Shown here one piece after another: positions 4,763 through 31,531 of a stretch of 31,746 bases of DNA. Each line of letters begins with the position of its first letter. Position 1 is the first letter of the stretch. The notes below the pieces were generated by a model. It had not been told where the DNA came from. It saw only the letters and a program-made list of their open reading frames with translations, and ran no database searches. The translations under genes and the position numbers were made by a program. The DNA is from a virus, in IMG/VR virus record IMGVR_UViG_3300031772_000179, positions 1 to 31,746 of that record, one strand, 5' to 3'.

Positions 4763-4948
4763 TTATTCCCTAGGCAACCGCTTGTCAAGGGGCAAAATAG
4801 CCTCGTTTTTTATTAATTGATGGACTCTTTGAAAACTTATCTTGAAAATTCTTGATAAAGAACGGGTCGTATATTTACCGGTAGAATATAACTCGATTAT
4901 CTTGTTGTTTCTCTTAGTTTCAGGAGTTTCTTGAAATGGTACGCCCAT
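4763..4948 (-). CDS. Small helix-turn-helix regulator
   Basis: A 61-residue protein dominated by one HTH: KRNNKIIELYSTGKYTTRSLSRIFKISFQRVHQLIKNEA. The turn (TTRSLSRIFKIS) and recognition helix (FQRVHQLIK) resemble sigma-70 region 4 or resolvase-type HTH domains. I take the ATG at 4948; a TTG two codons upstream (4954) is the only other start. The ATG lies six bases after a consensus -10 box, so the mRNA may be leaderless. The promoter is embedded in a 29-bp palindrome, as expected if the protein represses its own promoter. As first gene of the recombination operon it is the likely early switch regulator. Confidence 0.7.
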   Translation of the reverse strand: MGVPFQETPETKRNNKIIELYSTGKYTTRSLSRIFKISFQRVHQLIKNEAILPLDKRLPRE

Positions 4949-4950
4949 AG

Positions 4951-4979
4951 ACAAATTATAACAGAGGTTATAAATTTGT
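4951..4979. promoter_or_regulatory. Palindromic operator overlapping the early promoter
   Basis: ACAAATTATAAC (4951-4962) and GTTATAAATTTGT (4967-4979) form an inverted repeat around a 4-base AGAG centre, perfect except for one extra base in the right arm. It covers the -10 box and spacer and touches the -35 of the minus-strand promoter, so a bound dimer would exclude RNA polymerase. The adjacent small HTH protein is the natural candidate to bind it. Confidence 0.6.
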
Positions 4980-4982
4980 CAA
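4955..4982 (-). promoter_or_regulatory. Consensus sigma70-type promoter of the recombination operon
   Basis: On the minus strand, TTGACA (4982-4977) and TATAAT (4960-4955) are both perfect and separated by 16 bases. The expected start of transcription falls at or next to the A of the HTH gene's ATG (4948). The -35 overlaps the stop codon of the upstream gene. This should be the strongest promoter of the early block. Confidence 0.8.
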
Positions 4983-5185: not shown

Positions 5186-5472
5186 GAATGGTGAGGTCTC
5201 CCCCCGTTAAAAGTTATTATAAACGGATTTTTCCTTGTTTTCTCTCAAGTCCTCCGCTAGTGTCTGTGAAACCTTAGCCTTTCTCATCTAAGGTACGCCA
5301 CCCATCCACAACTTTGATTTACGGTGGTGTTTAGACCTTCCCCGTTTTGTTTTCCCGATATGCTGTCGGGAACGCATCAGGTTTTAGGCTCTGGGACTTG
5401 TTCTGTGAACCAGCGTTTCCCCAGATTTAACTCCCCAGCTGGTCAAAGAAAATGAAGAATTTAGCAGAACAC
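5186..5472. other. Structured non-coding segment with many inverted repeats
   Basis: No convincing gene lies between 5186 and 5578. This part holds several base-paired elements: ACCTTAG 5271-5277 with CTAAGGT 5288-5294 (7 bp); TTCCCGA 5352-5358 with TCGGGAA 5366-5372 (7 bp); CCACC 5298-5302 with GGTGG 5323-5327; CCGTT 5204-5208 with AACGG 5222-5226; and a long-range AGGTCT 5194-5199 with AGACCT 5333-5338 that would close the branches into one domain. GGGAACGC (5368-5375) can alternatively pair with GCGTTTCCC (5413-5421, one bulge), competing with the second hairpin. It could be a regulatory RNA, a leader or a replication origin; the sequence alone does not say which strand is used. Confidence 0.4.
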
Positions 5473-5501
5473 TTGACAGAGTACCAAATAAGTGATATAG
5501 T
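5473..5501 (+). promoter_or_regulatory. Plus-strand consensus promoter
   Basis: TTGACA (5473-5478) is perfect, the spacer is exactly 17 bases, and the -10 is TATAGT (5496-5501, one mismatch). It points right, against every protein gene in the window, and an intrinsic terminator follows only about 50 bases after the expected start point (about 5506-5509). Confidence 0.7.
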
Positions 5502-5505
5502 CTGT

Positions 5506-5579
5506 ACCGATTAGTTCCAGTTACTCTAATCATAATAAAAGTTGATCTTTTAGGGCGTTTTTCTAGGAACGCCCTTTTT
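5506..5579 (+). ncRNA. Candidate phage small RNA with own promoter and terminator
   Basis: The predicted transcript is about 70-75 nt. It folds into three consecutive hairpins: GATTAG 5509-5514 with CTAATC 5526-5531; TAAAAG 5536-5541 with CTTTTA 5547-5552; and the terminator stem GGGCGTT 5553-5559 with AACGCCC 5568-5574 followed by five T. A consensus promoter ends at 5501. It contains no significant reading frame. It would be antisense to any minus-strand readthrough transcript of this intergenic region. Possible roles are a trans-acting regulator, an antisense control of the adjacent leader, or a replication primer. Promoter, compact structure and terminator together make this the best RNA-gene candidate in the window. 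Confidence 0.6.
5553..5579 (+). terminator. Intrinsic terminator, plus strand
   Basis: A 7-bp stem, GGGCGTT/AACGCCC, with an 8-base loop is followed directly by TTTTT on the plus strand. On the minus strand the stem is followed by TAAAAG, so it would not terminate leftward transcription. It therefore serves the plus-strand RNA that starts near 5508. Confidence 0.75.
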
Positions 5580-5875
5580 CATTTTTGGTTATATTTTTTA
5601 TACTTACTAGATAAAAATTCCTTAGTTAAGTAGTCCTCCAAAAAACACACGAGCGTATAAAGTAAATATCGTGCGTCTAGCGACACGAGAGTTTCATTCA
5701 GTAGGCCATCTGGATACTTTACAACGATTGACAATTTTTCCTTCAATGGCCGTGCGTAGATTCGCCTTTCAATTAGATTGTAGCAAAGGGTTGCGTCTTT
5801 TCTCCGGCTTGGTGTCTTTCCAAAGGACACGCTCCATTTTTCGTCAGTCTTTGGTACGGTTACTTTTATTCTCAT
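5579..5875 (-). CDS. Hypothetical beta-rich protein, 98 aa
   Basis: A 98-residue basic protein starting MRIKVTVPKTDEKWSVSFGK. Predicted strands alternate with charged turns (KLSIVVKYPDG, ETLVSLDARYLLYTLVCFLEDYL), and it ends in a lysine-rich tail. No family recognised. The ATG has no Shine-Dalgarno but follows a short possible leader peptide through a TAA-ACC-ATG junction. Upstream are a consensus promoter and two hairpins, so it is probably regulated on its own. Its stop codon shares bases with the T-tract of the plus-strand terminator. Confidence 0.55.
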   Translation of the reverse strand: MRIKVTVPKTDEKWSVSFGKTPSRRKDATLCYNLIERRIYARPLKEKLSIVVKYPDGLLNETLVSLDARYLLYTLVCFLEDYLTKEFLSSKYKKYNQK

Positions 5876-5878
5876 GGT

Positions 5879-5950
5879 TTATTCTGTAGTTTTCAAGTAG
5901 GGGAGTGAAAGGAGGTGATCCGAAAACTCCCCTGTGGCAACCGAGATCAT
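5879..5950 (-). CDS. Possible leader peptide, 23 aa
   Basis: A 23-residue frame (MISVATGEFSDHLLSLPYLK then TTE) lies in the leader of the 98-residue protein gene and ends three bases before its ATG (TAA-ACC-ATG), a junction also used elsewhere in this genome. GAAGGT just upstream could serve as a weak ribosome site. The frame runs through the hairpin that carries the anti-Shine-Dalgarno copy, so translating ribosomes would unfold it. Evidence for translation is only positional. Confidence 0.25.
   Translation of the reverse strand: MISVATGEFSDHLLSLPYLKTTE
5899..5933 (-). promoter_or_regulatory. Hairpin exposing a copy of the 16S rRNA 3' tail
   Basis: An 8-bp perfect stem (AGGGGAGT 5899-5906, ACTCCCCT 5926-5933) has a 19-base loop. 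Read on the minus strand, the sense of all genes here, the loop contains GGATCACCTCCTTTC (5921-5907). This is identical to the end of 16S rRNA in many bacteria, including the CCTCC anti-Shine-Dalgarno. Read on the plus strand it is a 15-base perfect Shine-Dalgarno, but no start codon follows at usable distance. The minus-strand promoter at 5984-6013 would transcribe it. C-rich loops that pair with ribosome sites are known in Gram-positive small RNAs; use as such here is inference. Confidence 0.55.
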
Positions 5951-5976
5951 ACCTTCATGGGTTAGGTCAAGGTTGC
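5937..5976 (-). other. 5' hairpin of the leader RNA
   Basis: GCAACC (5937-5942) pairs with GGTTGC (5971-5976), with a nested ACCT/AGGT pairing (5951-5954 and 5964-5967). The outer stem begins where transcription from the promoter at 5984-6013 is expected to start, so this would be the first structure of the leader, directly ahead of the anti-Shine-Dalgarno hairpin. A 5' stem of this kind often protects a small RNA or leader. Confidence 0.4.
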
Positions 5977-5983
5977 ATAATTA

Positions 5984-6013
5984 AATATAGAACCTTTCTT
6001 GTTAGGGTGTCAA
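5984..6013 (-). promoter_or_regulatory. Minus-strand promoter of the hairpin leader and 98-aa gene
   Basis: On the minus strand, TTGACA (6013-6008) is perfect, the spacer is 18 bases and the -10 is TATATT (5989-5984, one mismatch). The start should be near 5976-5978. It lies between the C39-like peptidase gene (ends 6031) and the leader hairpins, with no other likely purpose in the 155-base gap. Confidence 0.65.
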
Positions 6014-6030: not shown

Positions 6031-6462
6031 TTACCTTTTATAAACAACCAACGCCCACCTATTTACCCGTTTGCCATCTTCAATATCGTACCAATTCTTC
6101 TCAAAATCTGGTATCGGTATTGTTGCGTCATTTAAGTAAACTATTCCATTTTCAACCTTATCAATTAGTGCGTAATGTCCGTCATCGGCGTCATTCGGCC
6201 CAGACATCCAATTTACAATTACATGATAATCTTTTAGAAGAATCCCCAATTCCCCAATCCTTAATCCTTCCAAGGGAAACCCCTTTAATCCAATATATTT
6301 AAGTCCCTCTACCATCTGTTCGTGGGATGTTCCGTCTTTAACTGACGTGTTCATTACCTCTGCTAATTCGGATTGGGTAAAGGATAATCCTTCTTGCTTT
6401 GCCACCCATTGTAATACGCCTGGCCCGCACCATCCTTCCGCCTCCTGTAATCTTTCTTTCAT
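6031..6462 (-). CDS. C39-like cysteine peptidase, stand-alone
   Basis: A 143-residue protein with the papain-like C39 layout. The catalytic Cys12 is in EGWCGPGVLQWV, the helix TQSELAEVMNTSVKDGTSHEQMVEGLKYIG matches the family's substrate-side segment, His96 is in DDGHYALIDKV and Asp112 is in YLNDAT. C39 proteases cleave double-glycine leader peptides when fused to ABC transporters; stand-alone phage and bacterial members are thought to cut peptides or cell-wall links. No signal peptide is present. The ATG overlaps the phosphoesterase stop (ATGA). The fold assignment is good; the substrate is unknown. It is the second C39-like gene here, distinct from the one in the lysis cassette. Confidence 0.7.
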   Translation of the reverse strand: MKERLQEAEGWCGPGVLQWVAKQEGLSFTQSELAEVMNTSVKDGTSHEQMVEGLKYIGLKGFPLEGLRIGELGILLKDYHVIVNWMSGPNDADDGHYALIDKVENGIVYLNDATIPIPDFEKNWYDIEDGKRVNRWALVVYKR

Positions 6463-22554: not shown

Positions 22555-22914
22555 TCACCTATAGCTTATAGTAACTGCCACATCATTTGTCGTTGTAAAT
22601 CCAACATATAGGCCAGTAGCAAATTTTACATCCAAAATAACTGTAACCGGAACTAAAGCTGCTGCCGGAACATAATAAGTAAATAAAATTGGTACAGCTT
22701 CAGTTGTCTGGTCATAGATAATAATTGAACCTGCCGTAGCTGCTGCATCAGTCGGACTAATCGTTACGGAATGTAAAAATCCTGCTCCTGCTTTTACTTG
22801 AGTATCGGCAGTACAATACGCCCAAATAAACTGTCCTTCTACTTTTAAGACATCGTTTGTTTGATCCTCACCGGCGATCAAAGTTGCAAGACTAATATCT
22901 TTTATGTAAGCCAT
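22555..22914 (-). CDS. Small beta-sandwich tail protein, 119 aa
   Basis: A 119-residue protein with regular strands (GSIIIYDQTTEAVPILFTYYVPAAALVPVTVILDVKFATGLYVGFTTTNDVAVTISYR). It resembles small phage tail proteins that end in a T-x-x-D-V-x-V-x-Y motif. It carries the strongest Shine-Dalgarno of the window, AGAAAGGAGG just ahead of the ATG, so it should be made in large amounts even though it lies within the tail operon. That suggests a structural, multi-copy product. Confidence 0.55.
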   Translation of the reverse strand: MAYIKDISLATLIAGEDQTNDVLKVEGQFIWAYCTADTQVKAGAGFLHSVTISPTDAAATAGSIIIYDQTTEAVPILFTYYVPAAALVPVTVILDVKFATGLYVGFTTTNDVAVTISYR

Positions 22915-22927
22915 ATTTCCCTCCTTT

Positions 22928-25900
22928 CTAAATTATAAACCAATTCGCATTATTATTAATGATAGTTATTGAACTATATTGATAATTTATAACAACATTT
23001 AATGCTCCGTCTATAGTTTCTGCCGCATTACCTTCTATGGTAACTGTATTTACTGTACTGTCTGTTTTTTTAATCGTAAATTTTGCAGTATTGCCGACTG
23101 CTGTTGGCAAATTAACTGTAATTCCTGCGGCAGTTGCATCACATAAGATAACTACATCTCCAGTTGTTGCGGCTTCATTCCTCACTGCATCTGTTTGGGT
23201 TGCTACTGTATAGACAGTTGCCAGAGTTCCGGAAGTCGGAAGTGTAACGGCAGTATTATTGGATAAAGTTAATCCTAAAGTAAAGTTTCCGGTGAAAGTT
23301 ATTGTGTTGTTTACTCCGTTGGATACTCCCGTACCGCCGTCTGCCGGTAATATATCCGTTCCTCCTGCTCTACTGATATATGCACCCCCAATAGTAACTG
23401 CTGTCGGAAGATCCGTACCCCATGCAGGGTTAGTACCTGCCCCACCACCGACAAGAATTTGAGTTGTTGCGCCGACTGCTAAGGCTTCAATCGCTCCTGC
23501 CCCCGCTCCGACCAAAAGACCACCATCGGTAAAGGTACTTGCACCAGTTCCTCCATCGGCTACCGATACATCCGTACCACCGGCGCGATAGATATAAGCT
23601 GATCCTATGGTAACTCCCGAAGCTAAATCACAAAGGTCTGTCGCACCGGTTGTAAAGGTGATAAATGTTGTGTCGTTTGCCGCCAAGAGCATCGTATCCG
23701 CATTGGTAGAACCGGATTTAATGACTCCCGCCGCTCCTATTTCTATTGTCGTTCCATCAGAAAGAATAATCCCTCCTACAATCTCAATTCCACCATCATC
23801 AATTCTTAGAATCTCCGTACCATCTACATTGAATTTGAATTGGCCTCTGTCTGCTGTCGCCGAAGCTACATCGGTTTGGAAAAGAACATAGTTAAGTGTC
23901 TGCGCTCCAGCATCATAAACCGATTGGATATGCAATTCTTCTGCATCTACCGCACCGATTCTTATTTCCGGACTGGCATCATTAACCGGATTGTATAGTT
24001 TCAATCCATAGAGAGAGGGGATAGCATCAGTCGTAAGATCCTGATTGATAACACTTGCTGTTCCATCTATGGTAAGAGTGGCGGCGACATTACTGGCGTT
24101 GACGATTTTAGTGAGTTGTATGGCTGTACCCTCACCCTCAACCTCAAAGTTTTGTTCATCAAGGGTAATTTCTGCGGCGGCATCCTGAACAGTTAGAGTA
24201 ATTCCATATCCTGCTGTAACAGTTAAGTTATCATTAATATCAACAACTTTTCCTGCGGCGACATCCAAACTGGCAGTACCAGCCGTTAAAGAAAAAGTGT
24301 TTGATCCACCGAGTAATGCTAGTGTAGTGCCACCTACGGTCAATGTAGTGGCGGCATTGGCGCTATTTATCAGTTTGAATAGTCTGGTTGCCGTTTGTTC
24401 GCCTTCTACTTCAAAAGTCTGTTTATCCAAAACGATTGATCCTGCCGCACCTTCGGCGGTCAAGGTGAAATCATACCCATCACCAACAACTAAGTTTTCA
24501 TTCAGAGTAATGCTTCTATCCCCACCTGCTACCAGAAAATTCAAAGTTCGGTTTGAGGTATCGTTTTCATTCCAAACTAAAGACAAGGCATGAGAATCGT
24601 TTGTATCATTAATTTTCAAAACATCAAAAGTACCAGACATTGTGGGATCATTCCCGGCAGTTAAAGTCAAAAGAGGAATATAAGCTGTACCATTGACATC
24701 ATACGCACTAAGCGAAAAGGTATTACCGGAAGTTATATTAGTCTGTATTGCTTCCCCTGTTGGAAGTACGAATCCCGAATGTCTATAATCACCGAAGTTA
24801 TGACCGACTTCATTATTTGTTCCCGCATCTATGATTTGAGCTGTTGTATTTCCATACGCTCTACACCCGACAAGATTGTTATTTTCCGTTGCGTTATTGA
24901 GATTAAATCCATACTTTTGAACATAAGTTCCTGTTCCGTCATCATACGCCACACAATTTATGAATGTGTTATTTTTAACCCCTACTAAATAGAAACCTGA
25001 CAGAGAGGCATTGGTCTGATTATTGGTAATCGCCTGACAATTAGTAAAGGTATTATAATTTACATAATCGGGTACACCGAAATAGAATCCCGTCGCACCA
25101 TTTAAGTAAGCGATACAATTTGTCCAGTTATTATAGTTTCCTCTTTTTATATTGAAACCGTCATTACCATTAGAATAGCAGTTGATATTGCTAAAATTAT
25201 TTCTGTCTGTCGTAAGGGTAGTACCGCCTATATCAATAAAGAATCCGTCTAGTGTATTATCGTGGGCAATTAAATCGGAAACATCATTTCTCTTACATCC
25301 ATAAAGCCTAAATCCATTTTCCGTATTATTTTTAGAAGTAATATGACTAAGAACGGAATCATAAACTCGGTCAAACTTCAGTCCATCATAACAGGAGTCT
25401 ATGTTTATATTCTCAAAAATGCTGTCGTAAACCCTGATGTAGTAAATGGCGTGGTTAGAAGTAGTTGTACCGACATTTGAAACATAGATATTAGACAGTC
25501 TGTGATGGTAGGTATCCTTTATAATGACTGCGGAATGTGCCAAATCGTATCCCCAGATATTTTGGACAACGATGTTGTCTGATTCTGTCCCCACACCTCC
25601 GATCATTTCTATTCCCGACCACGCCCCTGCTGTTTGATTCGCCTTATTCCCATCCAACTTCATATCGCTGACAATGATATTTCTATTCGTATTCGGAGGA
25701 ATTGAATAATTTGAGTTTCGTATTATTGAAGCATTGATAGAATTTCCAAGTTTCAATATCGTTGCAAAACCCAATCCTTTTAACCACGCATTATCGGGAA
25801 CTAAAATTGTGGCCGTAATATCGTAAGTCCCCTCTTTAATAGAAACCATTCCACCACCTGCGGGTAACGCGGCAATAGCCGCTTGAATCTGAATATCATC

Positions 25901-31012: not shown

Positions 31013-31531
31013 TTAAGTGAGTTGTTTTGATACCTGTTCTCCGGTTTCCGGTTTCACCCTGTCAATCTTCCATCTATCTCCGGCATGGGTTGTTTGATGA
31101 TATTCCTGTTCAATGTTATCGGCAATCGCTTCCGGAACAGTCCAATACTTGCCTTTCGGAATCGTAACCCGATAGCCATTGAATGTTTTACTCCAGACTG
31201 CACCGCTTACTGCCACCATTTCTCCGTTTACTTCTCTTACTTCTCCGGGTTTCTCGCCTTCATCTAAAGGAATCAGTACCCGGACTGTCGGCTGTGATGC
31301 AAGAAATTTCTTCATCCGTTCCACTTTGGTTTCCCACCTGCGGTCATCTGCTTCTCGTACCTGTGTAGATTCAACCGGTTCAAGAGTCTTTACTGGTTTA
31401 GCACTTTGCATGGCTCTGATAGTAGTAATAAGAGGGGCTTTCGTAGTAAAATTCTTTAATTCCTCTTCCGGAATACCCAATGTAACGGCTTTTTCTTTTA
31501 ATTGTGCGAGTGTAAGTTCTTCTAATTTCAT
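31013..31531 (-). CDS. Head-associated protein with SAP/HeH-like N-terminus
   Basis: A 172-residue protein with a GGAGGAATT ribosome site. The N-terminus (LEELTLAQLKEKAVTLGIPEEELKNFTTKAPLITTIRAM) has the helix-extended loop-helix pattern of SAP/HeH domains that bind nucleic acid. A charged linker follows, then a beta-rich domain (PTVRVLIPLDEGEKPGEVREVNGEMVAVSGAVWSKTFNGYRVTIPKGKYWTVPEAIADNIEQ). The second half resembles small phage head proteins encoded near capsid genes. It lies where a scaffold is often found, but its composition is not typical of one. Confidence 0.55.
   Translation of the reverse strand: MKLEELTLAQLKEKAVTLGIPEEELKNFTTKAPLITTIRAMQSAKPVKTLEPVESTQVREADDRRWETKVERMKKFLASQPTVRVLIPLDEGEKPGEVREVNGEMVAVSGAVWSKTFNGYRVTIPKGKYWTVPEAIADNIEQEYHQTTHAGDRWKIDRVKPETGEQVSKQLT

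Follow-up and report, generated by a model that had tools for sequence, protein, structure and literature searches.

Leader hairpins that stabilise phage mRNAs or attenuate their expression precede the first gene and occupy the 5′ end of the transcript. Other hairpins act on Shine-Dalgarno (SD) sequences. The C-rich hairpin loops of RNAIII from S. aureus and the anti-SD loop of CyaR from E. coli dock on SD sites (PMC2837412), and in the mRNA of the type I toxin aapA3 of H. pylori a short anti-SD stretch forms hairpins and masks the mRNA's own SD (PMC6733600).

Here, we present the analysis of a hairpin from a virus (IMG/VR record IMGVR_UViG_3300031772_000179), the whole record with a length of 31,746 bases being referred to as the window. 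The loop of this hairpin contains the 15-mer GGATCACCTCCTTTC, which we take to be identical to the common bacterial 16S rRNA 3′ tail.

Results

Structure of the locus

Essentially all long genes of the virus record are encoded on the minus strand. Between the genes at 6031 and 5875 is a gap with a promoter, two hairpins and about 24 nt of open sequence, followed by an ATG. The features of the locus and the best pairing partner of the loop are:

5984-6013, minus strand: sigma-70-type promoter TTGACA-18-TATATT, 11 of 12 consensus bases, intergenic
5937-5976, minus strand: hairpin 1 (GCAACC...GGTTGC), a predicted fold that starts where the 5′ end of the transcript is predicted
5899-5933, minus strand: hairpin 2, 8-bp perfect stem AGGGGAGT/ACTCCCCT with a 19-nt loop containing GGATCACCTCCTTTC
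5907-5921, minus strand: 15-mer GGATCACCTCCTTTC, inside the loop of hairpin 2
5879-5950, minus strand: upstream ORF of 23 codons, MISVATGEFSDHLLSLPYLKTTE, spanning hairpin 2 and ending TAA-ACC-ATG at the next gene
5579-5875, minus strand: orphan 98-aa gene downstream of the leader, without SD
22915-22936, minus strand: leader of the gene 22555-22914, containing GAAAGGAGG, with which the loop pairs better than with any other start region of the window (-15.7 kcal/mol)

In plus-strand orientation, positions 5899-5933 read AGGGGAGT-GAAAGGAGGTGATCCGAAA-ACTCCCCT, with the two arms at 5899-5906 and 5926-5933. The sequence thus reads as stated in a preliminary description of this DNA, which had reported an 8-bp stem, a 19-base loop and the 15-mer on the coding-sense strand. 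The copy of GGATCACCTCCTTTC at 5907-5921 is the sole match in the window when up to two mismatches are allowed, and 3 of 100 dinucleotide shuffles gave a match at this threshold. An 8-bp stem enclosing the 15-mer occurred in 0.7% of flank shuffles, and 1.2% of shuffles gave a GC-rich inverted repeat of 8 bp at any position of the 155-nt gap. Since the enclosing stem is this rare, hairpin 2 is unlikely to represent noise; it is real and beyond chance. Across both shuffle tests, the stem exceeds chance (about 0.7-1.2%).

No family of Rfam 15 matched at the gathering score. An intrinsic terminator was rejected: on the minus strand no U run follows 5899, and the terminator scan did not return hairpin 2. 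The identity as tRNA or tmRNA was rejected as well. An integration site copied from a 16S gene was also considered; no integrase was seen among the proteins searched (a part of all proteins), and the match ends at 15 bases.

The minus-strand leader including hairpin 2 is probably transcribed, as judged from the promoter, for which a transcript start at about 5977 is predicted. This is in line with the placement of hairpin 2 on the coding-sense strand in the preliminary description, the hairpin being located about 45 nt downstream of the 11/12-consensus promoter. In a 3-kb region, the consensus scan found 15 promoter-like sites versus 7.5 expected. On the minus strand, hairpin 2 starts 3 nt after hairpin 1, and the leader folds more stably than its own shuffles (z -2.9 and -3.5 in two computations); at the latter value, only 2 of 302 tiled minus-strand windows are more extreme. 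The upstream ORF, the stop of which lies 3 nt before the start of the 98-aa gene, shows a coding-like codon usage: 3.9% of off-frame windows score as high and 24% of coding windows score lower. The 98-aa gene has the start context AATAAAC-ATG, like other genes of this SD-poor phage. A weak promoter-like site, CAGAAT-AAACC-ATG, was also noticed downstream of hairpin 2.

Two elements elsewhere in the window were recorded separately. A possible plus-strand small RNA at 5473-5580 combines a promoter (TTGACA-17-TATAGT, 5473-5501) with a terminator (5552-5575) and a fold z of -3.6. In a gene-poor stretch, positions 253-311 contain a GC-rich inverted repeat of 10 bp, TGGTCGGGGA/TCCCCGACCA, around a 39-nt loop and have the lowest fold z (-4.0) among the tiled minus-strand windows.

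Background of natural Shine-Dalgarno sequences

The complement of the 15-mer, GAAAGGAGGTGATCC, is a full-length, optimal SD. For this reason, uniform-chance arithmetic is misleading and natural SDs form the realistic background. The preliminary description, which considered a chance 15-base match in 32 kb to be unlikely, ignored this SD-complement nature and overstated the case. The 50 related records (1.43 Mb summed) contain two exact copies of the 15-mer, both of them SD-like in coding-strand orientation; the copy in L216 precedes an ATG and that in L211 a terminator. In IMG/VR, at least 120 stretches carry the 15-mer. Inspected by eye, the matches listed are mostly SDs before starts, conserved coding sequence (KEVI and KGGDP readings) and SD-like sites before terminators. 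None of the 119 other IMG/VR stretches listed has a comparable Watson-Crick stem close on both sides of the 15-mer.

Among the listed 15-mer matches, a recurring arrangement was GAAAGGAGGTGATCC, then ATCT at the distance of a start codon, then a terminator. The pattern AAAGGAGGTGATCC-N0-4-ATCTA was found in 55 contigs, part of them representing conserved coding sequence, versus 2 for a control with ATCTA permuted to ACTTA. About ten distinct phages (counted by eye), for example L023, L043, L046, L333, L347, L353, L358 and L365, show AAAGGAGGTGATCC, 0-4 nt, ATCTA(G/C) and then a hairpin resembling an intrinsic terminator. Several of these elements are located right after a stop codon and lack an ATG.

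Predicted fold of the loop and pairing with SD sites

In the predicted fold, the GGA of the 15-mer pairs with its UCC over 3 bp, giving an inner helix in which the unpaired probabilities of U, C and C are 0.09, 0.01 and 0.01. The anti-SD core is accordingly predicted to be mostly paired and the 19-nt loop not to be open. The earlier view that the 19-base loop displays the 16S copy is at odds with this prediction, in which the GGA/UCC pairing buries the core.

The pairing with GAAAGGAGG before 22914, also part of the preliminary description, holds on paper. It comprises 9 perfect base pairs at -15.7 kcal/mol, the best of all start regions in the window, and the SD of the gene at 31531 pairs over 7 bp at -11.1 kcal/mol. 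The loop can thus pair with the strongest SDs that this phage has. Complementarity to SD sites, as expected of an anti-SD antisense RNA, is therefore present at both genes. On the opposite strand, a reading as plus-strand SD had been noted to lack a start codon. No start is present 5-10 nt downstream; the nearest GTG (5934) lies 18 nt after GGAGG.

By a simple core test, 7 of 30 phage genes have an SD core, in agreement with the earlier remark that many internal genes of this phage use coupled starts without an SD. Many genes show AATAAA(C/T)-ATG start contexts, and SDs seem to be of minor importance to the phage. Several minus-strand promoter-like sites are located 5-6 nt before an ATG (18507-18478, 8065-8036, 4982-4955), which suggests leaderless mRNAs. 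At 4948-4982 on the minus strand, a perfect TTGACA-16-TATAAT lies within an inverted repeat, and an ATG follows the -10 box at a distance of 6 nt; the corresponding gene looks like a leaderless, autoregulated HTH gene. Taken from the sequence, the promoter-ATG spacing, the start contexts and the low share of SD cores hint at non-SD or leaderless translation in the host.

Related phages and possible hosts

Capsid protein relatives reach up to 78% identity, and several structural genes match related contigs. For the early region around hairpin 2, no relative was detected among the 50 related records. RecT gave short or weak matches in 3 of these 50 records and no relative in a single-protein scan of viral contigs, a method that finds close relatives only. 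Neither the 98-aa nor the 143-aa protein had a relative in the viral-contig scans (again close relatives only) or in phage records; for the former, the 50 related records likewise contained none, and a fold search gave no convincing match. The C39-like protein had no match in the related records, and a DNA search of phage records with the leader gave none.

The preliminary description had proposed a search of related phages for the stem and loop. None of the phages examined has hairpin 2, and none shares the early region: the hairpin was absent from the 50 related records and from the results of an IMG/VR stem-loop search, and none of these shares the neighboring genes, so that the absence carries little weight. 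Hairpin 2 was found in this one virus only. The scan of related loci, which used shorter cores, returned only the window and L238. The latter, the sole contig found when searching for this stem together with the loop, has a 12-bp self-complementary repeat after a capsid-like gene and was rejected as unrelated, about one match being expected by chance according to our estimate.

The nearest capsid relatives in genome bins were from a Parcubacteria MAG (59%), a Rhizobiales MAG (55%) and a Syntrophobacterales MAG (52%), where the contigs may be misbinned phages. No exact copy of the 15-mer was detected in these three bins, and the Parcubacteria bin gave no 16S tail at up to two mismatches.

Discussion

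We tentatively favor, at somewhat less than an even chance, that hairpins 1 and 2 make up a structured 5′ leader that precedes one phage operon and act in cis. Transcription would start directly ahead of hairpin 1, at about 5977, hairpin 2 would follow 3 nt on, and about 24 nt of open sequence would lead to the start of the 98-aa gene. Both hairpins could protect the 5′ end of the mRNA or control entry to this gene. Translation of the upstream ORF, ending 3 nt before the 98-aa gene, might melt hairpin 2, and the 16S-tail match would be an incidental or secondary use of the loop. The near-consensus promoter, the predicted start at the base of hairpin 1, the unusual stability of the leader, the stem beyond chance and the AATAAAC-ATG context argue for such a leader. 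On the other side, no homologous leader was found and thus no covariation, promoter-like sites also arise by chance, and the DNA carries the inverted repeat as well, as a possible binding site for a protein. If the loop has no role as a decoy, the locus represents an ordinary structured leader, and the case illustrates that 16S-tail matches in phage genomes need to be judged against the natural SD background.

Among the other explanations, it is possible, though we consider it rather doubtful, that the loop pairs with the SDs of phage or host mRNAs and blocks their translation, from which SD-less phage genes would escape. The exact 15-mer with its enclosing stem, the paper pairing with the SDs of 22914 and 31531, the small number of phage genes with an SD core and the precedent of RNAIII and CyaR (PMC2837412) are consistent with this idea, whereas the pairing predicted for the core inside the loop speaks against it, as does the lack of such a hairpin in the related loci scanned and in the 119 other IMG/VR stretches listed. 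For a possible anti-SD role in trans, the SD of the gene 22555-22914 would be the best target. Less probable is the more far-reaching version in which the leader RNA, through its copy of the 16S tail, would compete with the ribosome for SDs and thereby favor the phage's own SD-less mRNAs. If true, this would be a novel strategy for gaining control of the host's protein synthesis, in which a phage skews translation by mimicry of rRNA itself.

We judge it similarly improbable that the inverted repeat is a DNA operator that binds a dimeric regulator beside the promoter, the SD-like match being a coincidence. A further inverted repeat of this phage, GACAAATT...AATTTGTC at 4950-4980, covers a promoter, overlapping TTGACA-16-TATAAT, and the minus strand has additional GGGGAG half-sites at 5436 and 5203. 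However, the arms are 27 bp apart from start to start, which is a non-integral number of helical turns, the repeat follows the predicted start by about 45-80 nt, and no second copy of the whole repeat was found. Still less weight is given to the explanation that the 15-mer belongs to a translated ORF of 23 codons that is coupled to the 98-aa gene, with the hairpin and the rRNA match as side effects or parts of an attenuator. A stop 3 nt before the next start is seen in other gene pairs of the phage, and the codon usage falls within the coding range; against this stand the mere 23 codons, the lack of an SD and of a homologue, and the reliance on a single test of a short stretch. An SD site or relic on the plus strand, or plain chance, appears just as remote. 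Most occurrences of the 15-mer in other viral contigs read as SD or coding sequence, and two exact copies occur in the related records, but the plus strand offers no start at SD spacing, the long genes are on the minus strand, and the stem is unlikely by chance.

Compared with the leader hairpins of other phage mRNAs, hairpins 1 and 2 are similarly located at the predicted 5′ end before the first gene. We know of no homologue of this hairpin among them, and its loop differs in carrying 16S-tail sequence. With aapA3, the phage locus shares an anti-SD stretch that is part of the mRNA itself and lies in a hairpin, whereas the gene downstream in the phage has no SD that could be masked. RNAIII and CyaR are separate regulatory RNAs with proven targets, in contrast to the phage hairpin, which is part of a putative mRNA leader in one phage, has candidate targets only and a core that is predicted to be paired. 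Like them, it carries a C-rich anti-SD sequence in a hairpin loop that could dock on SDs, and its match to the 16S rRNA is longer than theirs.
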